Part shown: positions 9,012 to 21,982 of the stretch, piece after piece
How positions within the stretch are numbered: the first letter of the stretch is position 1
Layout: every line of letters starts with the position of its first letter
Assembly: GCF_003977755.1 (NCBI RefSeq)
Contig: NZ_RQWN01000002.1
Span: forward strand, 434,001 to 498,000
Direction: 5' to 3'
Length of the DNA stretch: 64,000 nt
Source of the DNA: Haloterrigena salifodinae
GTDB taxonomy: Archaea > Halobacteriota > Halobacteria > Halobacteriales > Natrialbaceae
Made by a program: the position numbers and the translations under genes
Notes under the pieces: generated by a model
The model's input: the letters and a program-made list of their open reading frames with translations, nothing else
The model's database searches: none
Told to the model about the DNA's origin: nothing

Positions 9012-9170
9012 TCAGACGGCTTCACCGAGTTCGTCCGCTTGCCACTCGGCGACGAGTTGCTTGGCCAACTCCCGCGGTTTGTGTTGGTACACGAGGTGGT
9101 GTTCGAGGTCCTCGTCGAGGACCATCTCTTCGTTGCACACGTAACAGAAGACAGAGGACGTCGTCGACAT
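9012..9170 (-). CDS. small C2H2-type zinc-finger protein
   Basis: 52 aa. One zinc finger: CYVC followed by HHLVYQH gives two Cys and two or three His ligands. Such very small single-finger proteins are abundant in haloarchaea, and some affect lipid synthesis, biofilm or stress responses. Start at ATG 9170 (MSTTSSVFCYVC), or the ATG at 9176 two codons upstream. It is convergent with the metal ATPase, with a 15-nt gap. Confidence 0.75.
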   Translation of the reverse strand: MSTTSSVFCYVCNEEMVLDEDLEHHLVYQHKPRELAKQLVAEWQADELGEAV

Positions 9171-9255
9171 ACGCATAGTAGACGGTCCGAAACGAAAACT
9201 GGCTCGCCGAATCACGTCGGTATTCGGAGCGGGAGAACGCGCCACTTCACCGCTG

Positions 9256-9780
9256 CTATCCGTCGGAGCGCTGCCTGCTCGGCTCGAGTCCCGGTCGTCC
9301 GTCGACCCACCACAGCGCGGCGCCGGCGACCAGAATTACGGCCTCGAGCCAGAGCGTCGTCACCTCGACTCCGCCGACGGTCGCCAGCGGCTTCGTTCCG
9401 CTGTACGGCGGCATAGGCGTGATCGGCCACAGGAGAAACCCGAGTTCGTCGTAGTCACCGGCGATTACGTGCCACGGGACGTCGGTCGCCAGATGGGAGG
9501 CGACGCCGATCGCGAAGGCGATCCCGAGCGACGGTCGACCGCTCGAGCGCGCCAACAACCAGCCTGCGAGAACCAGCGGGACGGCGAACAGCAGCGAGTG
9601 GCCGATCGTTCGGCCGACCGTGAGCCCGAGCAGCCACGGCGGTTTGTCGAGCAGATCCGGCAGGGCCGTGCCGACGGCTGCGACGACCGTCGCTCGCTCT
9701 CCCGGGGGCGTCCCCTCGCTCCAGCGGACATAGCCGGCGTAGCAGAGGTAGCCGACGGCGAGATGGACAATCGGTTGCAT
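9256..9780 (-). CDS. YdjM/DUF457-type membrane-bound metal-dependent hydrolase-like protein
   Basis: 174 aa, with about four membrane segments. Conserved polar motifs fit the LexA-binding/YdjM family of inner-membrane putative metal hydrolases: His6 in the first helix, ALPDLLDKP, GHSLLF and SHLATD. The actual reaction is not established for the family. It sits between the zinc-finger gene and the divergently oriented NadB-like gene. Confidence 0.75.
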   Translation of the reverse strand: MQPIVHLAVGYLCYAGYVRWSEGTPPGERATVVAAVGTALPDLLDKPPWLLGLTVGRTIGHSLLFAVPLVLAGWLLARSSGRPSLGIAFAIGVASHLATDVPWHVIAGDYDELGFLLWPITPMPPYSGTKPLATVGGVEVTTLWLEAVILVAGAALWWVDGRPGLEPSRQRSDG

Positions 9781-9922
9781 CCTCTTCGATCGTTCCGACG
9801 GCCTCGAGCCGGGTAACGGATAGGCCGCCGACTAACGCCGAACGTACACTACAGCCGTCATCTCTGCCGAATTGTATCGTTTGGGACGACCCCTAAGTAC
9901 GCGCAGCCCATACATTAGTTGT

Positions 9923-11803
9923 ATGACAGAATCACCCGCTGACGATCGTCGGCCGGCGGAGAACGCGCGTCGGGAATCGGCCGCAGCAGCCGACCTCGGC
10001 GGCGTAGCGAACCGAATCGGTCGAACGAACCGATCGGCATCATCGGACGGCCTCGAGTACGACGTCGTCAGGACGCCGGTACTCGTCGTCGGCGCGGGGG
10101 CGGCGGGCGCCCGCGTCGCGATCAGCCTCGCCGAATCAGGCCTCGAGCCGCTGGTGATCGGGAAGCGAGACCACGGCGACGCGCACACGACCTGGGCGGC
10201 CGGCGGGATCAACGCCGCGCTCGGCTCGCTGGACGACGAAGACGACTGGACGATCCACGCCGCGGACACGCTGAACGAGGGGCACCACCTGAACGATTCC
10301 GAGGCGGTCGAACTGACCGCGCGCGAGATGCCGGATCGAATTCGCGAACTCGAGGAGTGGGGGATGCCGTTCGACCGGACCGACGACGGGGCGATCAACC
10401 AGCGGTACTTCGGCGCCCAGTCGTATCGCCGGACCTGCTTCGTCGGTGACCGGACCGGCGAGGCGATGCTCGAAACGCTGATCGGACGAGCTCGCGACCT
10501 CGAGATCCCCTACCGCGAGAACGTGATGGTCACGCGGCTGCTCTCGGACGGGCGGCGCGTCTTCGGCGCCGCCGGTTTCGACATGGAGACCGGCCGCGGG
10601 CTGTTGTTCCGGTCGAACCACGTCGTCCTCGCCGCGGGCGGCTTCTCCGCGCTCTACGACCGCCACTCCTCGCGGGACGACGAGAATAACGGGGATGCTC
10701 AGGCGCTGGCCCTCGAAGCGGGCGCTCGACTGATGGACCTCGAGTTCGTTCAGTTCCACCCGACGGGGATGGTCGGCGAACGCTACGGGGAGGAGTGGGA
10801 CGGCCGACTCGTCACGGAAGCCGTACGCGGCGAGGGCGGACGGCTCTACAACAGTGAGAGCGAACGGTTCATGGAACGGTACTCGCCGGATCAGATGGAA
10901 CTCGACGCGCGTGACGTCGTCGCGCGGGCGATCGGGAAGGAGATCGACGCGGGCCGAGGAACCGAGAACGGCGGCGTCTATCTCGACATCTCGCATCGAG
11001 ACGCCGACTACGTCCGGGAACGGCTGCCGCGGATGGTCGAGCGCTTCGCGTCGCTCGGCGTCGACATCACCGCGGAACCGATCGAGGTCGCGCCGACCGC
11101 CCACTACACGATGGGCGGCGTCGATATCGACTTCCGCACCGGCGAAACCAACGTCGACGGCTTGTATGCCGTCGGCGAGGCCGTTGCCGGCGTCCACGGT
11201 GCGAACCGTCTCGGCGGCAACTCGCTCGCCGAGACCGTCGCGATCGGCAAGCTCGTCGGCGAGCACGTCGCAACCGCGGTCGACGGATCGGACGCCGAGC
11301 CAGCGGTGACCGACGAACAGCGAGCCCTCGCCGAACGGGAGTTTCGGTCGCTCGCATCGCTCGCGGACGCCGACGGGGAGGTCACGCCGACGACCTTGCT
11401 GGAAGAACTCCGCGAGTTGCTGTGGGATCGCGCGGGCATTCTCCGCGACGAGGCCGGGCTTCGAGCCGGACTCGAGGAACTCGAGGCGCTCCGCGATCGA
11501 ACGGGGGACTTGCGCGTCGAGGGCGGACTCACCTCGCGATCGTTCGAGTTCGCCGTCGACCTCTCGGTTAGCCTCACCGTCGCCGAAGCGATGCTCCGAA
11601 CGGCCCTGGCTCGAACCGAATCCAGGGGCGCACACCACAGGACGGACTATCCGGAGACTGACCCGGACTGGCGCGTCAACCTGCTCGTCTCGGCCGACGA
11701 GGGCGGCCTCGAGATCGACCGTCGCGGCGTCGCCGAGCCGAGCGACCCGGTCCGAGAGGCGCTCGCGGAAGGGTACGAACTCGACTACCACCACCTCGAG
11801 TAA
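9923..11803 (+). CDS. FAD-dependent oxidoreductase, L-aspartate oxidase / fumarate reductase flavoprotein family
   Basis: 626 aa. A Rossmann FAD-binding motif GAGAAGARVAI lies about 55 residues in, preceded by a low-complexity extension. Family motifs are HTTWAAGGINAALG, HPTGMVGERYG, RGEGGRLYNSESERFM, and GVHGANRLGGNSLAETV near the C-terminal third. The C-terminal helical domain of the SdhA/NadB family follows. A standalone gene without nadA/nadC neighbours leaves two readings: L-aspartate oxidase (first step of NAD synthesis) or a soluble fumarate reductase/succinate dehydrogenase-type flavoprotein. It is clearly distinct from the sdhA in this window. ATG 9923 was chosen over 9872 by position of the promoter-like AT-rich sequence. 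Confidence 0.8.
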   Translation: MTESPADDRRPAENARRESAAAADLGGVANRIGRTNRSASSDGLEYDVVRTPVLVVGAGAAGARVAISLAESGLEPLVIGKRDHGDAHTTWAAGGINAALGSLDDEDDWTIHAADTLNEGHHLNDSEAVELTAREMPDRIRELEEWGMPFDRTDDGAINQRYFGAQSYRRTCFVGDRTGEAMLETLIGRARDLEIPYRENVMVTRLLSDGRRVFGAAGFDMETGRGLLFRSNHVVLAAGGFSALYDRHSSRDDENNGDAQALALEAGARLMDLEFVQFHPTGMVGERYGEEWDGRLVTEAVRGEGGRLYNSESERFMERYSPDQMELDARDVVARAIGKEIDAGRGTENGGVYLDISHRDADYVRERLPRMVERFASLGVDITAEPIEVAPTAHYTMGGVDIDFRTGETNVDGLYAVGEAVAGVHGANRLGGNSLAETVAIGKLVGEHVATAVDGSDAEPAVTDEQRALAEREFRSLASLADADGEVTPTTLLEELRELLWDRAGILRDEAGLRAGLEELEALRDRTGDLRVEGGLTSRSFEFAVDLSVSLTVAEAMLRTALARTESRGAHHRTDYPETDPDWRVNLLVSADEGGLEIDRRGVAEPSDPVREALAEGYELDYHHLE

Positions 11804-12713: not shown

Positions 12714-14078
12714 ATGGCAAACGATATGCCCGCGGACGAACCGTCGACAGGCGACTCATCACAGCGGCGAATGACCACCGATCCCGAGCGCATCAGGGAG
12801 TGGGCGGAGGCGCGCAACGCGGTCCCCGTAACGATCCGCGACAGCGAGGGACACGGCCACTCCTTCGCCCGTCGGGACGACCTCGGAACGGACCACGAGG
12901 AGTATACGTGGGACGAGTTCATCGAGACGTTCCGAGACGAGGATCTGGTGTTCGTCTACCACGAGGACGAGCCCACGGAGGAGGGGCTGGGCCACTTCGA
13001 AATCGTCGAACGCGAACGGGCGTTCGAACGCGCCGACCTCGGCCGCGAGGAACTCGAGGACCAGCTTCGCGAGGGCGAGACGGTCACGACCGAAATCGTC
13101 GAAACGCAGGTCGTCGAGACGGAGGTCGTCGAACGGGACACGATCGAGAGCGAGGTCGTCGATACCGAGATCGCCGAGCGCCACGTCGTCGACTCGGAGC
13201 TGCTGAAACGGGAGATCGTCGACACCGAGTTTGTCACCGCCGACGAGATCGAGGTCATCACCGAGGAGAGCCGCCTCGATACGGTCGAGGAAGTCGAACG
13301 CTACACGATCGAGAGCCGGGTCGTCGACGTCGACGTCGATCAGCACGACGAACTCGAGAGCGACAAGATCGAGACCGATATCGAACTCGAAAGTGTCCAG
13401 CGGTCGATCCTCGATAGCGACGTCGTCCGCACGGACGTAACCGCCGATGACGTCATCGATCAGGAGGTCATCCAGAGCAAGCGCGCCGAAGGTGACGTCG
13501 TCCGGAGCGAACTGCTCGAGCGGCGCACGGTCGAAGAGCAGATCGACGAGCGAACGCGCATGATCTTCACCCTAGAAGAGACCGACCTACTCGAGTCGGA
13601 AGTCATCGGCAGCGACGTCATCGAGGGCGAGATTATCGACGTCGAAGAGTACGGCGCGATCGAGACGTCAGCCGAAACCGATGAGGCCGGTACGGGCACC
13701 GGAGCCGGTGGCGGCGCCGGGACCGGCGGGGAAGGGGCCGGCGATCCCACTCCGGACGTCGAGGTCGAGTCCGGAACCGGCGGATCGACTGCCGACGCGG
13801 GCGACATGGGCCGGGTCGAACTCACCGAGGACGATCAAGGAAAAGACGTCGTCGACGAGACGGGCGAACAGATCGGTATCGTCGCGGAAGTCGAGGGCCA
13901 GACCGCCTACATCGATCCCGAGCCGGGACTGACGGATCGGCTCAAGGCGCGGATGAACTGGGGCAGCGGCCATGACGACGAGGACTACCCCATCGATGCG
14001 TCGGAGATCAACGAGATCACCAACCGCGAAGTGATCGTCCAGCACCGGGACGATGAGGACACCACCGGCATCGAGTAG
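12714..14078 (+). CDS. acidic pentad-repeat protein with C-terminal PRC-barrel-like domain
   Basis: 454 aa, three parts. Residues ~20-100 (DPERIREWAE, TWDEFIETF, DLVFVYHED) resemble a small domain found alone in many bacteria, of unknown role (family recalled, not searched). Residues ~120-305 consist of about 37 consecutive five-residue repeats with consensus h-[DE]-[ST/R]-[DE]-h, for example VETEV, IESEV, VDTEI, VDSEL. After a Gly/Thr-rich linker, residues ~365-450 (GKDVVDETGEQIGIVAEV, then AYIDPEPGLTDRLKARMNWG) resemble a PRC-barrel fold. There is no signal peptide or membrane segment. The five-residue period suggests a stacked beta-helix or solenoid. The function is unknown. Confidence 0.8.
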   Translation: MANDMPADEPSTGDSSQRRMTTDPERIREWAEARNAVPVTIRDSEGHGHSFARRDDLGTDHEEYTWDEFIETFRDEDLVFVYHEDEPTEEGLGHFEIVERERAFERADLGREELEDQLREGETVTTEIVETQVVETEVVERDTIESEVVDTEIAERHVVDSELLKREIVDTEFVTADEIEVITEESRLDTVEEVERYTIESRVVDVDVDQHDELESDKIETDIELESVQRSILDSDVVRTDVTADDVIDQEVIQSKRAEGDVVRSELLERRTVEEQIDERTRMIFTLEETDLLESEVIGSDVIEGEIIDVEEYGAIETSAETDEAGTGTGAGGGAGTGGEGAGDPTPDVEVESGTGGSTADAGDMGRVELTEDDQGKDVVDETGEQIGIVAEVEGQTAYIDPEPGLTDRLKARMNWGSGHDDEDYPIDASEINEITNREVIVQHRDDEDTTGIE

Positions 14079-16600: not shown

Positions 16601-17977
16601 TTACGCGTCCGTCGCTTCGTCGACTTCCGCTTCTTCTTCCTCCTCTTCGGGCGTATCCGGTGCGTCCTGATCCGCGCGACGGCCGACGTCGACCTGGTAG
16701 TTCCCGAGGATGTCCCGGCCGAGGATGACGGGGTAGTCCATGTGGCTGCGGTCCTCGACGCTGGCCGTGACGGTGTGCTGGGTGCCGCCGACGCCGACGA
16801 CGACGTCGACGACGGGGCGGCTCTTGGACTGTTTGCTGCTGCCCGATCGGATGCGGGTGATGGATTTGATCGGTCCGGCGCCGATGTCGGCGGCGAGGGC
16901 GGTGTCGATGCTCGTCCGCGTCGCGCCTGTGTCGGACTTCGCGAGGACGGTCTTCGAGCCGCTGGTCCCCGAGAGCACGATCTCCTCGGTGTAGCCGATC
17001 ACGCTCGGTTCCGTGTCCGGCGCCGACGTCTCGACGGGCTGGGCAGTCGGCCGAGAGTCGTCGAGGACGTTCGAGATGTCGTTGACGCGGTCCGCGTCGA
17101 CCTCGCCGCCGGCGCGTTCGATCGCCAACTTCGCGATGTAGGGGGCCGGACTGACCTGGGTCGCCTCGTAGAGGCCCTTGAATCCGGCTGTCGGATTGAC
17201 CTCGAGGACGAACCAGCCCTCGTCGCCCTCGACGAGATCGACGCCGGCGTAGTCGAGGCCGATGGCGTCGGCCGCGCGGCGGGCCATGTCGCGGGCCTCC
17301 TCGGGGAGGTCGTCGGTTGCGTCCTCGACGCTGCCGCCGAGGGCGACGTTCGTCCGCCAGTCGTTGTCCGGCGCGTAGCGGTACATCGCACTGATGATCT
17401 CGCCGCCGACGACGTAGACGCGGACGTCGCGGTGGCGGACGTCCTCGCGATCGATAAGTTCCTGCAGGAAAGCGTAGCGGTTGCCGACCTTCGCGTTGAT
17501 CGGATCGTTGGGGCCGACCTTCCACGTTCCACCGCCGTGGGTACCGATCGCCGTCTTGTAGACCGCTTCTTCGCCGTACCGATCCCGTGCCGCGTTGAGC
17601 TGATCGCCGCTGAGCGCGAGGGTGACGTCGGGGGTTCGGACGTCGTTGGCCGCGAGCGTCGTCGCCGTCGAGAGTTTGTGGATCGCCGTCAACACCGTCG
17701 ACGGCTCGTTGAGCGTCGGCACCAGTTGCGCGAACGTGTTCGCCAGCCCGAGTTCCTCGGCGGGCTGTTCGGTGTTCGACAGCAGCATCCGGTTCGCGAT
17801 GACGTCGACGTCCGGCTCTAAGACGACGCTCCCGTCGGTGACGCTGATCGACGTGTTCTCGGCACGGAGCCACTCGGTATCGTGGCCCAGATCTTCGACG
17901 GCGTTGAGAATCGCTTTCGTTTCCTTGCTCGTGTGTAGACTCAGTACCCCGACAGTGACAGGATCGGCAACAGCCAT
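16601..17977 (-). CDS. RimK-type ATP-grasp ligase fused to a RimB-like (retropepsin-fold) protease domain
   Basis: 458 aa. Residues ~1-290 are a RimK-like ATP-grasp ligase: Lys141, the glycine-rich loop GTHGGGTW (145-152) and the metal/phosphate motif FVLEVNP (257-262). It would join an amino acid, classically glutamate, to a carboxylate. Residues ~325-435 form a PF05618-type domain, once called ATP-dependent zinc protease, with SDTGA (348-352, catalytic Asp) and MDYPVILGR (413-421). The tail is Glu-rich. In bacteria these are usually separate adjacent genes, and modification plus removal is the proposed cycle. The ATG at 17977 begins the canonical beta-strand (VTVGVLSLH). It lies 135 nt downstream of the flippase gene on the same strand. 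Confidence 0.88.
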   Translation of the reverse strand: MAVADPVTVGVLSLHTSKETKAILNAVEDLGHDTEWLRAENTSISVTDGSVVLEPDVDVIANRMLLSNTEQPAEELGLANTFAQLVPTLNEPSTVLTAIHKLSTATTLAANDVRTPDVTLALSGDQLNAARDRYGEEAVYKTAIGTHGGGTWKVGPNDPINAKVGNRYAFLQELIDREDVRHRDVRVYVVGGEIISAMYRYAPDNDWRTNVALGGSVEDATDDLPEEARDMARRAADAIGLDYAGVDLVEGDEGWFVLEVNPTAGFKGLYEATQVSPAPYIAKLAIERAGGEVDADRVNDISNVLDDSRPTAQPVETSAPDTEPSVIGYTEEIVLSGTSGSKTVLAKSDTGATRTSIDTALAADIGAGPIKSITRIRSGSSKQSKSRPVVDVVVGVGGTQHTVTASVEDRSHMDYPVILGRDILGNYQVDVGRRADQDAPDTPEEEEEEAEVDEATDA

Positions 17978-18112
17978 ACTCAAACACACGACTACGGGGG
18001 GCAAAAGGATACTGTCATCAGCAGGCGGCGCCTGCTTTCGATTGTCACTTCGAGGACGCCCCGTCTCGTCGGACCACACCTCTCACGAGTCGGATCCACG
18101 GTCGCCGCGCCG

Positions 18113-19582
18113 TCACGTGATCGCCGCCCGGACCTCGTTGGGATCGACCAGTCCGCTCGCGACGACGAGGACGGCCCACGTGATCGCGCCCAGCGCGATC
18201 GCGCCTGCCAACATCGCGAGACTCGAGACCAGCGGCGTCACGAGCAACACGGCGCCGGCCATGATCCCGGTGATCACGCAGATGACGCAGATCGACCGGG
18301 CGAGTCGTTTGAGCCGGAGTTCGAGTTCCAAGTGGACGATGTAGAGGTTCACCGCCACGTACACCGAGTGCGTCGCGACAGTCGCGATGGCCGCGCCGAC
18401 GACGCCGATCGTCGGGATGAGAACGAGGTTCAACAGGAAGTTGGCGACGGCCGTCCCTCCTTTCGCCATCGCCCGGTGGCGTGCACGCCCGAGGTAATCT
18501 AAGCTGTCGCTGGTCAGGTTCGTGATCGCCTGCAGGATGATGAACGCGGCCAGGACCTGCAACACCGGCACCGCACCCGCGTACTCGGCGCCGATGACCA
18601 TCGGAATGAACGGATCGGCGACGATCACGAGCCCGGCGGCCGCGGGGATGTACACCATCATCGTGTTCGTCAGCGCCGTCTCGTAGATCTGCCTGGCCTG
18701 CTCGAGTTGGTTCGAGGCCTTCTGTTCGCCGAAGTTCGGCGAGATCGTAAAGCCGAGCGATTCGGCGGGCGCGAGCACGAAGTCGGTGATCTGCTTGCCG
18801 AGCGTGTAGAACGCGACCGCGGTCGGAGTCAGGATGACGCCGACGAGCACGGTGTCGACCTGTTTGTCGATGACATTCGCGCTTCGCGTCGCGGTCAGCG
18901 GCACGCTGTACTCGATCATCCGTCGCGTCAGCCCCTCTTCGTGGGTCTCCGCGGCGTCGTACTGCGCGTAGAAGGCGTAGTAAAGGACCGCGAGCCCGAC
19001 CGCGGCCGACAGCGCGTAGCCGACGACGTAGCCGAAGAATGCGCCCAGCGCCCCCAGTCCCATGAGCACGAAGCCGACGGCGAAGACCAGTCTGGAGAGG
19101 CCGCTGATCGCCCTGACGGCGGCGCTGTACGGGAGGTGGTTGAACCCCTGGAAGGCGACTTCCGTGAACGTGCTAAAGGAGAAGACGGCGATGTAGAGCA
19201 CGCCGGCCGCGAGAAACGGCGCGGCGTCCGGCCGACCCAGCGCGGCCGCAAGCTGCTCGTGGAACACCAAGAGGAGGTAGCCGACCAGCGCCATGATGAC
19301 GATCTTGAACGTGATCGTCGATCTGAGCAGGTGCGGAATCTGGCCCGGATCGTCCTCGCGGTACTCCGAGAGGTATCGCGCCGCGGATTTGCCGATCCCG
19401 AGATCCGCGACCAGTCGGATCATCGCCAGTATCCCGATCACCCAGTACAACGTCCCGTAGCCGTCGGGATCGAGGAGATAGCGCGCCAGTACGAACATCA
19501 ACAGCGCGCTCGAGATCATGTAGATCGCTCGAGCGAGCAGCGTTGCCTTGAACCCGCGGACGATGTGGTCCTCTCGACTCAT
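18113..19582 (-). CDS. Wzx-like polysaccharide/oligosaccharide flippase
   Basis: 489-aa membrane protein with about 14 predicted helices, beginning right after MSREDHIVRGFKATLLARAIY. The pattern is that of the MOP/PST (Wzx, RfbX) superfamily: conserved charged/polar breaks such as GKSAARYLSEYRE near residue 65, FTEVAFQG and GKQITDF, and a C-terminal helix pair. It probably moves lipid-linked glycans across the membrane for surface glycosylation. No glycosyltransferases lie beside it. It precedes the RimK-RimB gene on the same strand, so a shared transcript is possible. Confidence 0.85.
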   Translation of the reverse strand: MSREDHIVRGFKATLLARAIYMISSALLMFVLARYLLDPDGYGTLYWVIGILAMIRLVADLGIGKSAARYLSEYREDDPGQIPHLLRSTITFKIVIMALVGYLLLVFHEQLAAALGRPDAAPFLAAGVLYIAVFSFSTFTEVAFQGFNHLPYSAAVRAISGLSRLVFAVGFVLMGLGALGAFFGYVVGYALSAAVGLAVLYYAFYAQYDAAETHEEGLTRRMIEYSVPLTATRSANVIDKQVDTVLVGVILTPTAVAFYTLGKQITDFVLAPAESLGFTISPNFGEQKASNQLEQARQIYETALTNTMMVYIPAAAGLVIVADPFIPMVIGAEYAGAVPVLQVLAAFIILQAITNLTSDSLDYLGRARHRAMAKGGTAVANFLLNLVLIPTIGVVGAAIATVATHSVYVAVNLYIVHLELELRLKRLARSICVICVITGIMAGAVLLVTPLVSSLAMLAGAIALGAITWAVLVVASGLVDPNEVRAAIT

Positions 19583-19952
19583 GTGATAGGGGAGGGTATT
19601 CGGTTGCGCGCGGTCGGTCAGCCGCTCGACCGTGGGAACCCGTCGTATCTATGCCGATGACTGAGTCGGCAATTGTAATGCGGGGACAACAGGTGTAACG
19701 TCCCGGTACCATCGCTGAAACGGCGTCTTAAGTCGATATCTCTGGGACGGAATCAGTCGACGGACACCGCAGCGACCGGACGGCTCGACGCTTCCGATCG
19801 ACCGTTCAGCCGAGTACGGATCGCATACTGTCTTCGACCCGGTCAGTTCGCCGGCGTATCGCCAGTGCGGCGGTCACCCGACAGCCCGACCGAACGAGTT
19901 CGTCTAAGACGAGACGGGGACGGTGCGACCGTGATGTATCGACGGCCGCCCC
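19583..19952. other. gene-free intergenic stretch
   Basis: 370 nt with no convincing coding frame. It holds the promoter side of the flippase gene and the 3' flank of the acetyltransferase gene. TCGTCT-A-AGACGA (19900-19912), a perfect 6-bp inverted repeat about 40 nt past the acetyltransferase stop, may be part of its termination region. GCCGA...TCGGC near 19653-19670 is a weaker inverted repeat. Confidence 0.4.
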
Positions 19953-20702
19953 TCAAAGATACGACGCGTCCCAGCGGGTCGCCTTCCGGCGGTTCCCGCA
20001 GTTGTTACACTCAATTCGGCCCATCGTGTCCATAGTGTTTTCCAGCGAGTCGCAGTTACCGCAGAACCAGCCGTACAGGTCCTGACGCCCCTCGCTCTTG
20101 TAGGCGCTGTAGAACGGCGCCTTGGCGCCGCGAGCGGCCTCGCCGTAGCTCACGTAGATCGTCTCGCCGTCGTTCTCGAGTTCGTCGACGGCGCCCCACC
20201 CCTCCTCGCCGATCTCGTCTTCGGCGTAGACGTTCTCCGTGAACGTCTCGTCGCCGATCTCGACCTCTCGCTGGCCGGCCCGTTCGAAGCCGTTGTCTGC
20301 GTAGAACTCGTTGCCGCCCTCGTTGTCCTCGAGGACGAGCCCCTGTACGTGGTCGGCGCCCTCGTCGAGCAACCGCTCGCGGGTGCGGACGAGCAGCCGA
20401 ACGCCCGTGCCGCCGCCGCGGTGATCGGGATCGATGTGGAGCCACAGGATTCGGCCGGTGTCGTAACGCTGGCCGATCAGGTCGTTCTGCGAGAAGCCGA
20501 CGACGTCGCCGTCGTTCTCGACGACGAGGATCAGCGAGTGATCGTCCTCGAGCACGTCGTCGAAGGAGTCGCCGTACCACTGATCGATCGCGTCGGCGAC
20601 GGTGTCCTCGTCGAGGAACTCGGTGTAGGTCGATTCGAGTGAGCGCTGGGCGATCGATCGGATCGCGTCGATATCGTCGGCTGTCGCTTCGCGAATCTCC
20701 AT
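19953..20702 (-). CDS. GNAT acetyltransferase with C-terminal zinc ribbon
   Basis: 249 aa. The N-terminal ~150 residues are a GNAT fold with the acetyl-CoA loop HRGGGTGVRLL (about residues 97-107) and the GFERAGQREV strand. The C-terminal ~60 residues have CGNC and CNNC pairs 20-25 residues apart followed by a basic, aromatic end (RKATRWDASYL), a zinc-ribbon module recurrent in haloarchaea (DUF5816-like). The substrate is unknown. The start at ATG 20702 (MEIREATADDID) fits the GNAT N-terminus; ATG 20729 is possible. It is divergent from the deacylase gene, whose ATG lies 174 nt away. Confidence 0.85.
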   Translation of the reverse strand: MEIREATADDIDAIRSIAQRSLESTYTEFLDEDTVADAIDQWYGDSFDDVLEDDHSLILVVENDGDVVGFSQNDLIGQRYDTGRILWLHIDPDHRGGGTGVRLLVRTRERLLDEGADHVQGLVLEDNEGGNEFYADNGFERAGQREVEIGDETFTENVYAEDEIGEEGWGAVDELENDGETIYVSYGEAARGAKAPFYSAYKSEGRQDLYGWFCGNCDSLENTMDTMGRIECNNCGNRRKATRWDASYL

Positions 20703-20875
20703 GCCCGGTGCTACCATGTCTTCATACAAAACGTATGCCCACGGGGAGAGATTTTCCCCGTCTTCAGTTCAGCGGAACGAGCCGTCTCGACGTAAAATCT
20801 ACACCGGCAGTTTCCGGCGCCGTTAGGTCCGGTCTCGAAGGGAAGATTCACATTGCCACCCGCCGAGCCATCGTT

Positions 20876-21982
20876 ATGAGCGACGTTACGGACGAACCGC
20901 CCGACGACGGTCCGTCCGACCGCACGGCCGAGCCGTTCACATACAACGGCGGCCGGGTCGATCCCGGCGAGTCGGCTAACATCCGGTACGGAATCAGCGA
21001 GACGTATCTCGGCGATCCCGTCAGGATCCCGGTCACGGTCGTCAACGGCGAACGACCCGGGCCGACGGTGTTTCTCTCCGCGGCCGCTCACGGGGACGAA
21101 CTCAACGGCATCGAGGTGGTCCGCGAGGTGGCCCACGACTGGGATCACTCGGAACTCCACGGGACGCTCATCTGTCTGCCCGTGATGAACGTCCCCGGCT
21201 TTCTCGCTCAGGAGCGGTACCTCCCGATCTACGACCGGGACCTGAACCGGTCGTTTCCCGGTCGCGAGGGCTCGACGAGCGCCCGGCGGATGGCCTACCA
21301 GATCTTTACGAACTTCATCGAACCCTGCGACCTCGGTATCGACTTTCACACGTCGACGCGGGGGCGGACGAACATGCTCCACGTGCGGGCCAACATGGAG
21401 GAGTCGACGGTCGGCCGACTCGCGAAGGCGTTCAGTTCGAACGTCATCATCGCCGGCGAGGGTCCCTCGGGGACGCTGCGCCGCGAGGCGACCCTGGCCG
21501 GCATCCCGACGATCACCGTCGAGATGGGCGAAGCCCACCGGTTCCAGCGCCGGCTGATCGACCGCGCGCTGACCGGCGTCGCCAGCGTCTTCGCCGAGTT
21601 CGGCTGTCATCCCGACTCGTCGGTCCACTGGCCCGGCTGGCGGACCATCATCGACGACGATAACGAGAAGACCTGGATTCGGGCCGACGCCGGCGGCATC
21701 GTCGACATGAAACGCGGCCGCGGCGAGTTCGTCCGCGAGGGCGAAACCATCTGTACGATCACCAACCCGTTCAAGGAGGAAGACGACATCGTCACCGTCG
21801 AGGCGCCGTTTACCGGCCTCATCGTCGGCGTCCTCGAGAACCCCGTAGTCTACCCCGGCAACCCGCTGTGTCACCTGGTCGGGCTGTCGCCGGACACGCG
21901 GACGGCCCTAGAGCGCGAGCGGACCACGGCGAGTTCGCGGTCGGAACTCCGCTCGGCCGGTCCGGACGACTACGGCGCGTAA
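20876..21982 (+). CDS. succinylglutamate desuccinylase / aspartoacylase-family zinc hydrolase
   Basis: 368 aa. Zinc-dependent M14-like amidohydrolase: zinc ligands His72 and Glu75 in AAHGDELNG and His158 in DFHTS; substrate-binding DLNRSFPG (122-129); catalytic Glu in TVEMGE (about 214-219). The C-terminal ~90 residues form a barrel-sandwich-like domain (GGIVDMKRGRGEFVREG), as in COG3608-type deacylases. There are no arginine-catabolism neighbours, so a true AstE role is unlikely. Genes of this type are frequently found next to RimK and RimB genes in other genomes, and a RimK-RimB fusion lies 3 kb away here. ATG 20876 is preferred to 20639, which would add 79 unlikely residues. Confidence 0.87.
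   Translation: MSDVTDEPPDDGPSDRTAEPFTYNGGRVDPGESANIRYGISETYLGDPVRIPVTVVNGERPGPTVFLSAAAHGDELNGIEVVREVAHDWDHSELHGTLICLPVMNVPGFLAQERYLPIYDRDLNRSFPGREGSTSARRMAYQIFTNFIEPCDLGIDFHTSTRGRTNMLHVRANMEESTVGRLAKAFSSNVIIAGEGPSGTLRREATLAGIPTITVEMGEAHRFQRRLIDRALTGVASVFAEFGCHPDSSVHWPGWRTIIDDDNEKTWIRADAGGIVDMKRGRGEFVREGETICTITNPFKEEDDIVTVEAPFTGLIVGVLENPVVYPGNPLCHLVGLSPDTRTALERERTTASSRSELRSAGPDDYGA

Follow-up and report, generated by a model that had tools for sequence, protein, structure and literature searches.

A RimK-retropepsin fusion and its AspA-like partner are a haloarchaeal variant of the RimB-RimK-AspA module

Results

A ligase-protease fusion near a deacylase gene

The window analysed here is a 64,000-nucleotide stretch of the genome of a haloarchaeon, Haloterrigena salifodinae (G000; 5.0 Mb assembly). 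On its reverse strand lies a gene, hereafter RimKB, that joins a RimK-type ligase to a retropepsin-like domain (16601-17974; 457 amino acids plus stop, coding part 16604-17974). Next to it are a MOP/Wzx-type polysaccharide flippase gene with a Polysacc_synt match (18113-19582, reverse strand), a gene for a GNAT acetyltransferase with a Cys-rich, zinc-ribbon-like DUF5816 tail (19953-20729, reverse strand) and, on the forward strand, a gene for an AspA/AstE-like zinc deacylase of the COG3608 type (20876-21982; PF24827, 4.4e-47). The Pfam matches bear out the neighbours named in a preliminary description of this DNA; the flippase and the GNAT are lineage-specific. Elsewhere in the window, positions 12714-14078 of the forward strand encode a 454-residue acidic protein with 'VVxTEVVERDxIES'-like repeats and no Pfam match, which is syntenic in part of the window's family, f1.

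The single open frame of RimKB spans 16601-18079 on the reverse strand, with a mechanical start at a GTG at 18079. The methionine at 17974 is the likely start, because alignments of relatives begin there. Pfam recognizes RimK (PF08443, 3.3e-22), Zn_protease (PF05618, 1.8e-9) and also Asp_protease_2 (PF13650), and the motifs SDTGA and DYPVILGR are both present, so a RimK-type ligase and a RimB-type hydrolase do share one chain, as had been proposed. The ATP-grasp domain (residues ~99-274; 17153-17680, reverse strand) is delimited by PF08443, conservation and fold match; the retropepsin-like domain (residues ~323-434; 16673-17008, reverse strand) by PF05618/PF13650 and a model of the domain alone. 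In an alignment of 81 homologues (80 loci and the window copy), the ATP-grasp K, R, R, D, E and N columns are kept in 79 to 81 sequences and the catalytic-type D-T-G of SDTGA (16925-16933, reverse strand) in 79. Full-length recurrence across the order, together with these near-invariant residues, confirms at the level of sequence that the fusion is real, neither a chance product nor a frameshift artefact. An acidic, disordered tail closes the protein (16604-16672, reverse strand), in which positions 16631-16648 encode six Glu in a row and AEVDEATDA comes after them.

An AlphaFold2 model of RimKB built from 21 homologues has a mean pLDDT of 84, with the last 21 residues disordered. Fold searches with the full model return ArgX/LysX structures first and RimK structures next. 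Modelled alone, the C-terminal domain finds RloA2 (9g59; Foldseek, 5e-8), then HIV protease (9e-5) and Ddi1. Given the DTG motif and this predicted fold, the modelled domain is a retropepsin and no zinc protease; 'ATP-dependent Zn protease' is an inherited label.

Curated profiles place the chain by family. It passes TIGR00768, the RimK family of alpha-L-glutamate ligases (152.7 bits; cut-off 143.4), and fails NF007764, the bS6-glutamate ligase RimK (65.5 bits; cut-off 331), and the RimB equivalog NF052261 (15.9 bits; cut-off 200). The RloA2 profile gives 37.7 bits (cut-off 250), and the DTG motif and fold are those of the retropepsin-like aspartic peptidase superfamily. 'RimK' and 'RimB' are used here as family-level names, with no claim of orthology. 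The preliminary description had also noted that an RpsF-type target is missing. This holds for the window genome: the bS6 family, PF01250, has no match there and is found in 10 bacterial control genomes, and on this profile evidence bS6 is excluded as the target of RimKB.

Distribution of the fusion

Full-length RimKB is present in 83 of the 99 Halobacteriales genomes sampled. Across 197 genomes of the phylum full-length matches are confined to this order, and elsewhere the ligase part alone is matched. These counts come from protein and alignment searches, since PF05618 alone misses many fusions; the genome of the laboratory strain Haloferax volcanii does match this profile. A search of the literature outside most subscription journals found no publication on the archaeal fusion.

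Some copies depart from the common form. Extra RimKB genes lie on the haloarchaeal plasmids NZ_CP054588.1 (L114) and NZ_CP101162.1 (L118), each with a divergent AspA gene alongside, and on NZ_CP101160.1 (L117) and NZ_CP147842.1 (L119), both without AspA; the L119 copy adjoins universal stress protein genes. NCBI labels plasmid copies 'RimK/LysX family protein'. The second copy at L108 (G094:C1:3481800-3501200, fusion at 9039-10367) has lost DTG (AEPVA) and has no Glu tail but retains the residues of the ligase, which makes it a naturally protease-dead copy, and the L110 copy reads DSG in place of DTG. Stand-alone proteins of ~105-125 residues that match the retropepsin domain only, at 37-40% identity, occur on plasmids of Natrinema thermotolerans and Natribaculum luteum (L115, 6998-7372; L116, 6992-7309), annotated as 'glutaminyl transferase' or hypothetical.

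The AspA-like gene accompanies RimKB

The AspA-like protein scores 160.6 bits against PF24827, the AstE/AspA catalytic domain (threshold 25). Its motifs HGDE, DxNR, DFHTS and E-G-E/A-H are invariant or near-invariant among relatives, and the Zn ligands H71, E74 and H157 are invariant. It fails the DoeB model (87.5 bits of 402.7), and AstE and aspartoacylase proper score lower and fail too.

With orthologues of AspA called above 340 bits, 82 of the 99 Halobacteriales genomes have both genes, 15 have neither and two are discordant, the latter being drafts that are 86% and 78% complete. Among the 80 genomes at least 90% complete, 70 have both, 10 neither and none is discordant, where each joint loss of the adjacent genes may represent one deletion. 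Genera g12 and g30 each include species with both genes and species with neither. We compared regions of ~19 kb, each enclosing one of 72 main or 8 secondary RimKB genes. Most families have AspA directly beside RimKB and in divergent orientation; at 59 loci the aligned starts are a median of 137 nt apart. In five genomes both genes are retained although they are not directly adjacent, and in four of these (G063, G094, G026 and G038) they are far apart. Plasmid- or megaplasmid-borne second copies in Halolamina and Halorarius repeat the divergent pair, as does the second-replicon copy in G072; the remaining second copies of RimKB lack AspA. Taken together, the concordance in near-complete genomes and the divergent arrangement at most loci support a functional link between the two genes, as the preliminary description had supposed. 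In the intergenic regions of the divergent pairs, 94-253 nt long, a search for a common regulator site turned up only recurring start-codon and TATA-like words.

Unfused counterparts in other genomes

Iyer et al. in 2009 reportedly proposed clusters of RimK, RimB and AspA genes, and the preliminary description drew on such clusters. We do see them. Methanosarcina-type archaea (family f19) have an operon of a stand-alone RimB-type gene, a RimK gene with Rimk_N and an AspA-type gene, and the same triad is carried by plasmids of Salinivibrio, Vibrio, Acaryochloris and Phaeobacter. A contig search with the triad AspA returned 80 loci, from Cyanobacteria, Proteobacteria, Planctomycetota, Actinomycetota, Chloroflexi and others, with one archaeon (Methanolobus). 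RimK and RimB are both in reach at no fewer than 50 of them, nearly all bacterial, and 39 have the order RimB-RimK-AspA. Similarity to the haloarchaeal proteins is remote: the Methanosarcina-type ligase and AspA are 28% and 34% identical to theirs.

The three enzyme types are found linked or co-retained in haloarchaea as well, with catalytic-type motifs kept. Judged by gene content, RimKB and AspA are the fused haloarchaeal version of the conserved RimB-RimK-AspA module, because Methanosarcina-type archaea and many bacteria have the same three parts in an operon. The arrangement differs: the operons have three separate co-directional genes, whereas haloarchaea combine ligase and protease in a single chain, with AspA transcribed divergently.

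Two bacterial systems invite comparison. The RimBK hybrid of Desulfotalea psychrophila also has a RimB-type retropepsin and a RimK-type ligase in one chain, but there RimB is N-terminal (PMC11957791), whereas the retropepsin of RimKB is C-terminal; RimKB therefore falls outside this hybrid type and is a separate fusion. The study of the hybrid sampled bacteria alone and does not mention archaea (PMC11957791). In the RloA/RloC system of Pseudomonas (PMC12239564), RloA2 is the closest to the RimKB retropepsin by profile and fold, and the protease is likewise paired with an ATP-grasp protein. RloA, however, is secreted and acts with the membrane protein RloB (PMC12239564), and for RimKB neither a signal peptide nor an RloB partner is evident.

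Bacterial triad loci (L160-L225, L140-L144) often lie beside CorA, MgtE or MscS genes. One of these genes flanks 26 of 89 unfused AspA or triad loci versus 3 of 80 haloarchaeal loci, two sets unmatched for taxonomy or for the length of flank covered. We found no mention of this neighbourhood in the literature searched.

A conserved Glu-Glu end on a variable tail

After the retropepsin domain, the tail of RimKB varies in length and sequence, except at its end. The chain closes with Glu-Glu in 61 of the 71 main orthologues (final Glu in 62, Glu at -2 in 61, final Asp in none), the species being related and the counts not phylogenetically independent. By genome, a Glu-Glu end is found in 56 of 72, across 11 of 13 families and on 52 distinct ten-residue ends. 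By comparison, of 1012 other ORFs at the same loci, called heuristically, 13% have a final Glu and 13 (1.3%) a final Glu-Glu, and not one closes with Glu-Glu-Glu. Scanning the 99 whole genomes for four Glu codons followed by TAA or TGA gave 46 sites, 10 of which are RimKB genes; the reversed control pattern gave 21.

The window copy itself ends not in Glu-Glu but in six Glu and the nine residues AEVDEATDA. In its genus three species end in EEEE, and three, including this one, have six to nine Glu before AEVDEATDA. Families f2 and f13 lack the terminal EE, and f2 has no tail at all; with the different end of the window copy, this means that the tail is not essential everywhere. The f2 loci L104 and L105, from genomes of ~1 Mb, retain the divergent RimKB-AspA pair and have no acidic tail.

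Scanning the same 99 genomes for six Glu codons and a stop, as a search for other substrates, gave 8 sites, two of which read TGG, no stop. Genus g11 (L120-L122, L132) has, at an equivalent position in four genomes, a protein of ~39 residues with six terminal Glu (...ARAVWERGRVPVEEEEEE; MTDADRDTMKD...VPVEEEEEE, for example L122, 5900-6018, forward strand), which in three genomes lies 1-2 kb from an AspA paralogue. G090, which has three RimKB copies, encodes a DUF5790 protein (L130, 5223-5846, reverse strand) and an unassigned protein (L131, 5450-5989, reverse strand) with long terminal Glu runs, possible poly-Glu proteins.

Discussion

Ligases of the RimK type attach Glu to the carboxylate at a C-terminus or synthesize poly-alpha-glutamate, and relatives of the retropepsin work as homodimers. 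Against this background our main reading, to which we assign a probability of about 0.6, is that RimKB and the AspA-like protein form a two-protein system that builds and dismantles an amide-linked glutamate addition, most likely poly-alpha-glutamate. Going by their families, the ATP-grasp domain would activate a carboxylate with ATP and ligate glutamate, the retropepsin would cut the chain once several Glu are contiguous, and the AspA-like zinc enzyme would hydrolyse the remaining acyl-glutamate amide or recycle the fragment. Building and cutting would then form a cycle inside one chain. RimB cuts at six or more contiguous Glu, terminal or internal (PMC11957791), a threshold that the six Glu of the window copy reach, and RloA cuts poly-Glu and requires eight or more (PMC12239564). 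We count against our reading that the published RimBK hybrid had an active protease and gave no glutamylation of RpsF (PMC11957791).

The acceptor is a weaker step. It may be the C-terminal Glu tail of RimKB itself, possibly along with other acceptors, and tail length would be set by the protein's own ligase and protease. Since Glu-Glu is conserved on otherwise variable tails, we suggest that RimKB modifies and trims its own tail, a plausible first target. More tentatively, and with doubts, we propose that this self-modified tail would serve as a variable-length glutamate tag or carrier, with the AspA-like enzyme taking part in its readout or recycling.

It is possible, if hardly the expectation, that the product is instead a small molecule: the acceptor of the ATP-grasp domain would be a soluble acid or a coenzyme, extended with glutamate or some other amino acid as by MptN/CofF or NAAG synthase, the retropepsin would trim, the AspA-like protein would degrade an N-acyl-amino acid, and the tail would be merely acidic. 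Enzymes of the AspA/AstE/DoeB family act on N-acyl amino acids, as this reading supposes. The MptN and LysX_arch models are also the next-best curated matches of RimKB (123.5 and 118.9 bits), and by curated score the ligase is nearer to them than to the S6-ligase model, so that its amino substrate is not necessarily glutamate. Both scores nevertheless fail by far the cut-offs of 350 and 275.6. MptN and CofF are RimK-family archaeal alpha-glutamate ligases, like the predicted RimKB ligase, but have no protease domain, and the conserved terminal Glu-Glu would be left unexplained. The long Glu runs that relatives of the retropepsin require (PMC11957791, PMC12239564) are also easier to reconcile with a chain than with a dipeptide or tripeptide.

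We regard as improbable a chemistry of the ArgX/LysX kind, in which a carrier protein, or RimKB's own tail, would receive an amino acid on its C-terminal Glu, where this would be processed and then released. The ATP-grasp fold is shared, ArgX with LysW is the best PDB match of the RimKB model, and LysX and ArgX attach their substrate to the carrier's C-terminal Glu (PMC10433800), a residue that is conserved at the end of RimKB. On the other hand, the carrier-recognition motif GSWGR (PMC10433800) is replaced by GTHGGG at the same position in RimKB, haloarchaea already have a separate ArgX, and no kinase/reductase set is conserved beside RimKB. Membership of RimKB in ArgX/LysX itself was ruled out by the absence of GSWGR and a score below the cut-off.

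A four-gene amide or glycan pathway that includes the GNAT and the flippase, as the preliminary description had it, seems to us very improbable. All four genes do lie within ~6 kb in the window and in 7 other genomes of family f1, but gene order in this family is generally kept, sdh and katG included, which explains their proximity. Only in f1 do the flippase and the GNAT-DUF5816 gene sit between RimKB and AspA; other families have AspA and RimKB directly adjacent without them, and we ruled both out as members of the module. Comparison across the order thus upholds the co-occurrence of RimKB and AspA and removes the other two genes from it. Equally hard to credit is that RimKB and AspA are mere syntenic housekeeping neighbours, like the sdh genes that also flank AspA at most loci: the pair is intact where sdh is located elsewhere, both genes are co-retained even when far apart, they move jointly to plasmids, and an unfused operon counterpart exists in other phyla.

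For the two-protein glutamate system, the weakest step is its role. Because bacterial triads often lie beside CorA, MgtE or MscS genes, a rimK gene of Photobacterium damselae, not necessarily one in a triad, is 52-fold up at low salinity (PMC10308900), and RloA-type proteases are required under hypo-osmotic stress (PMC12239564), analogy suggests ion or osmotic homeostasis, which for haloarchaea would be an extrapolation.

The RimKB-AspA pair is real and conserved, an archaeal form, so far unstudied, of a known three-enzyme module. To our knowledge, a ligase and a retropepsin dedicated to C-terminal polyglutamylation have been described in bacteria only, with the ribosomal protein bS6 as target. 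With the fusion highly conserved in an archaeal order without bS6, the target of the module must be a different one there, and the conserved Glu-Glu end provides a first candidate substrate. The tie to an AspA-like deacylase adds a third activity, not covered by the bacterial work on RimK and RimB. As Halobacteriales include genetically tractable species, the role of RimK-like enzymes beyond ribosome modification is directly testable in this order.
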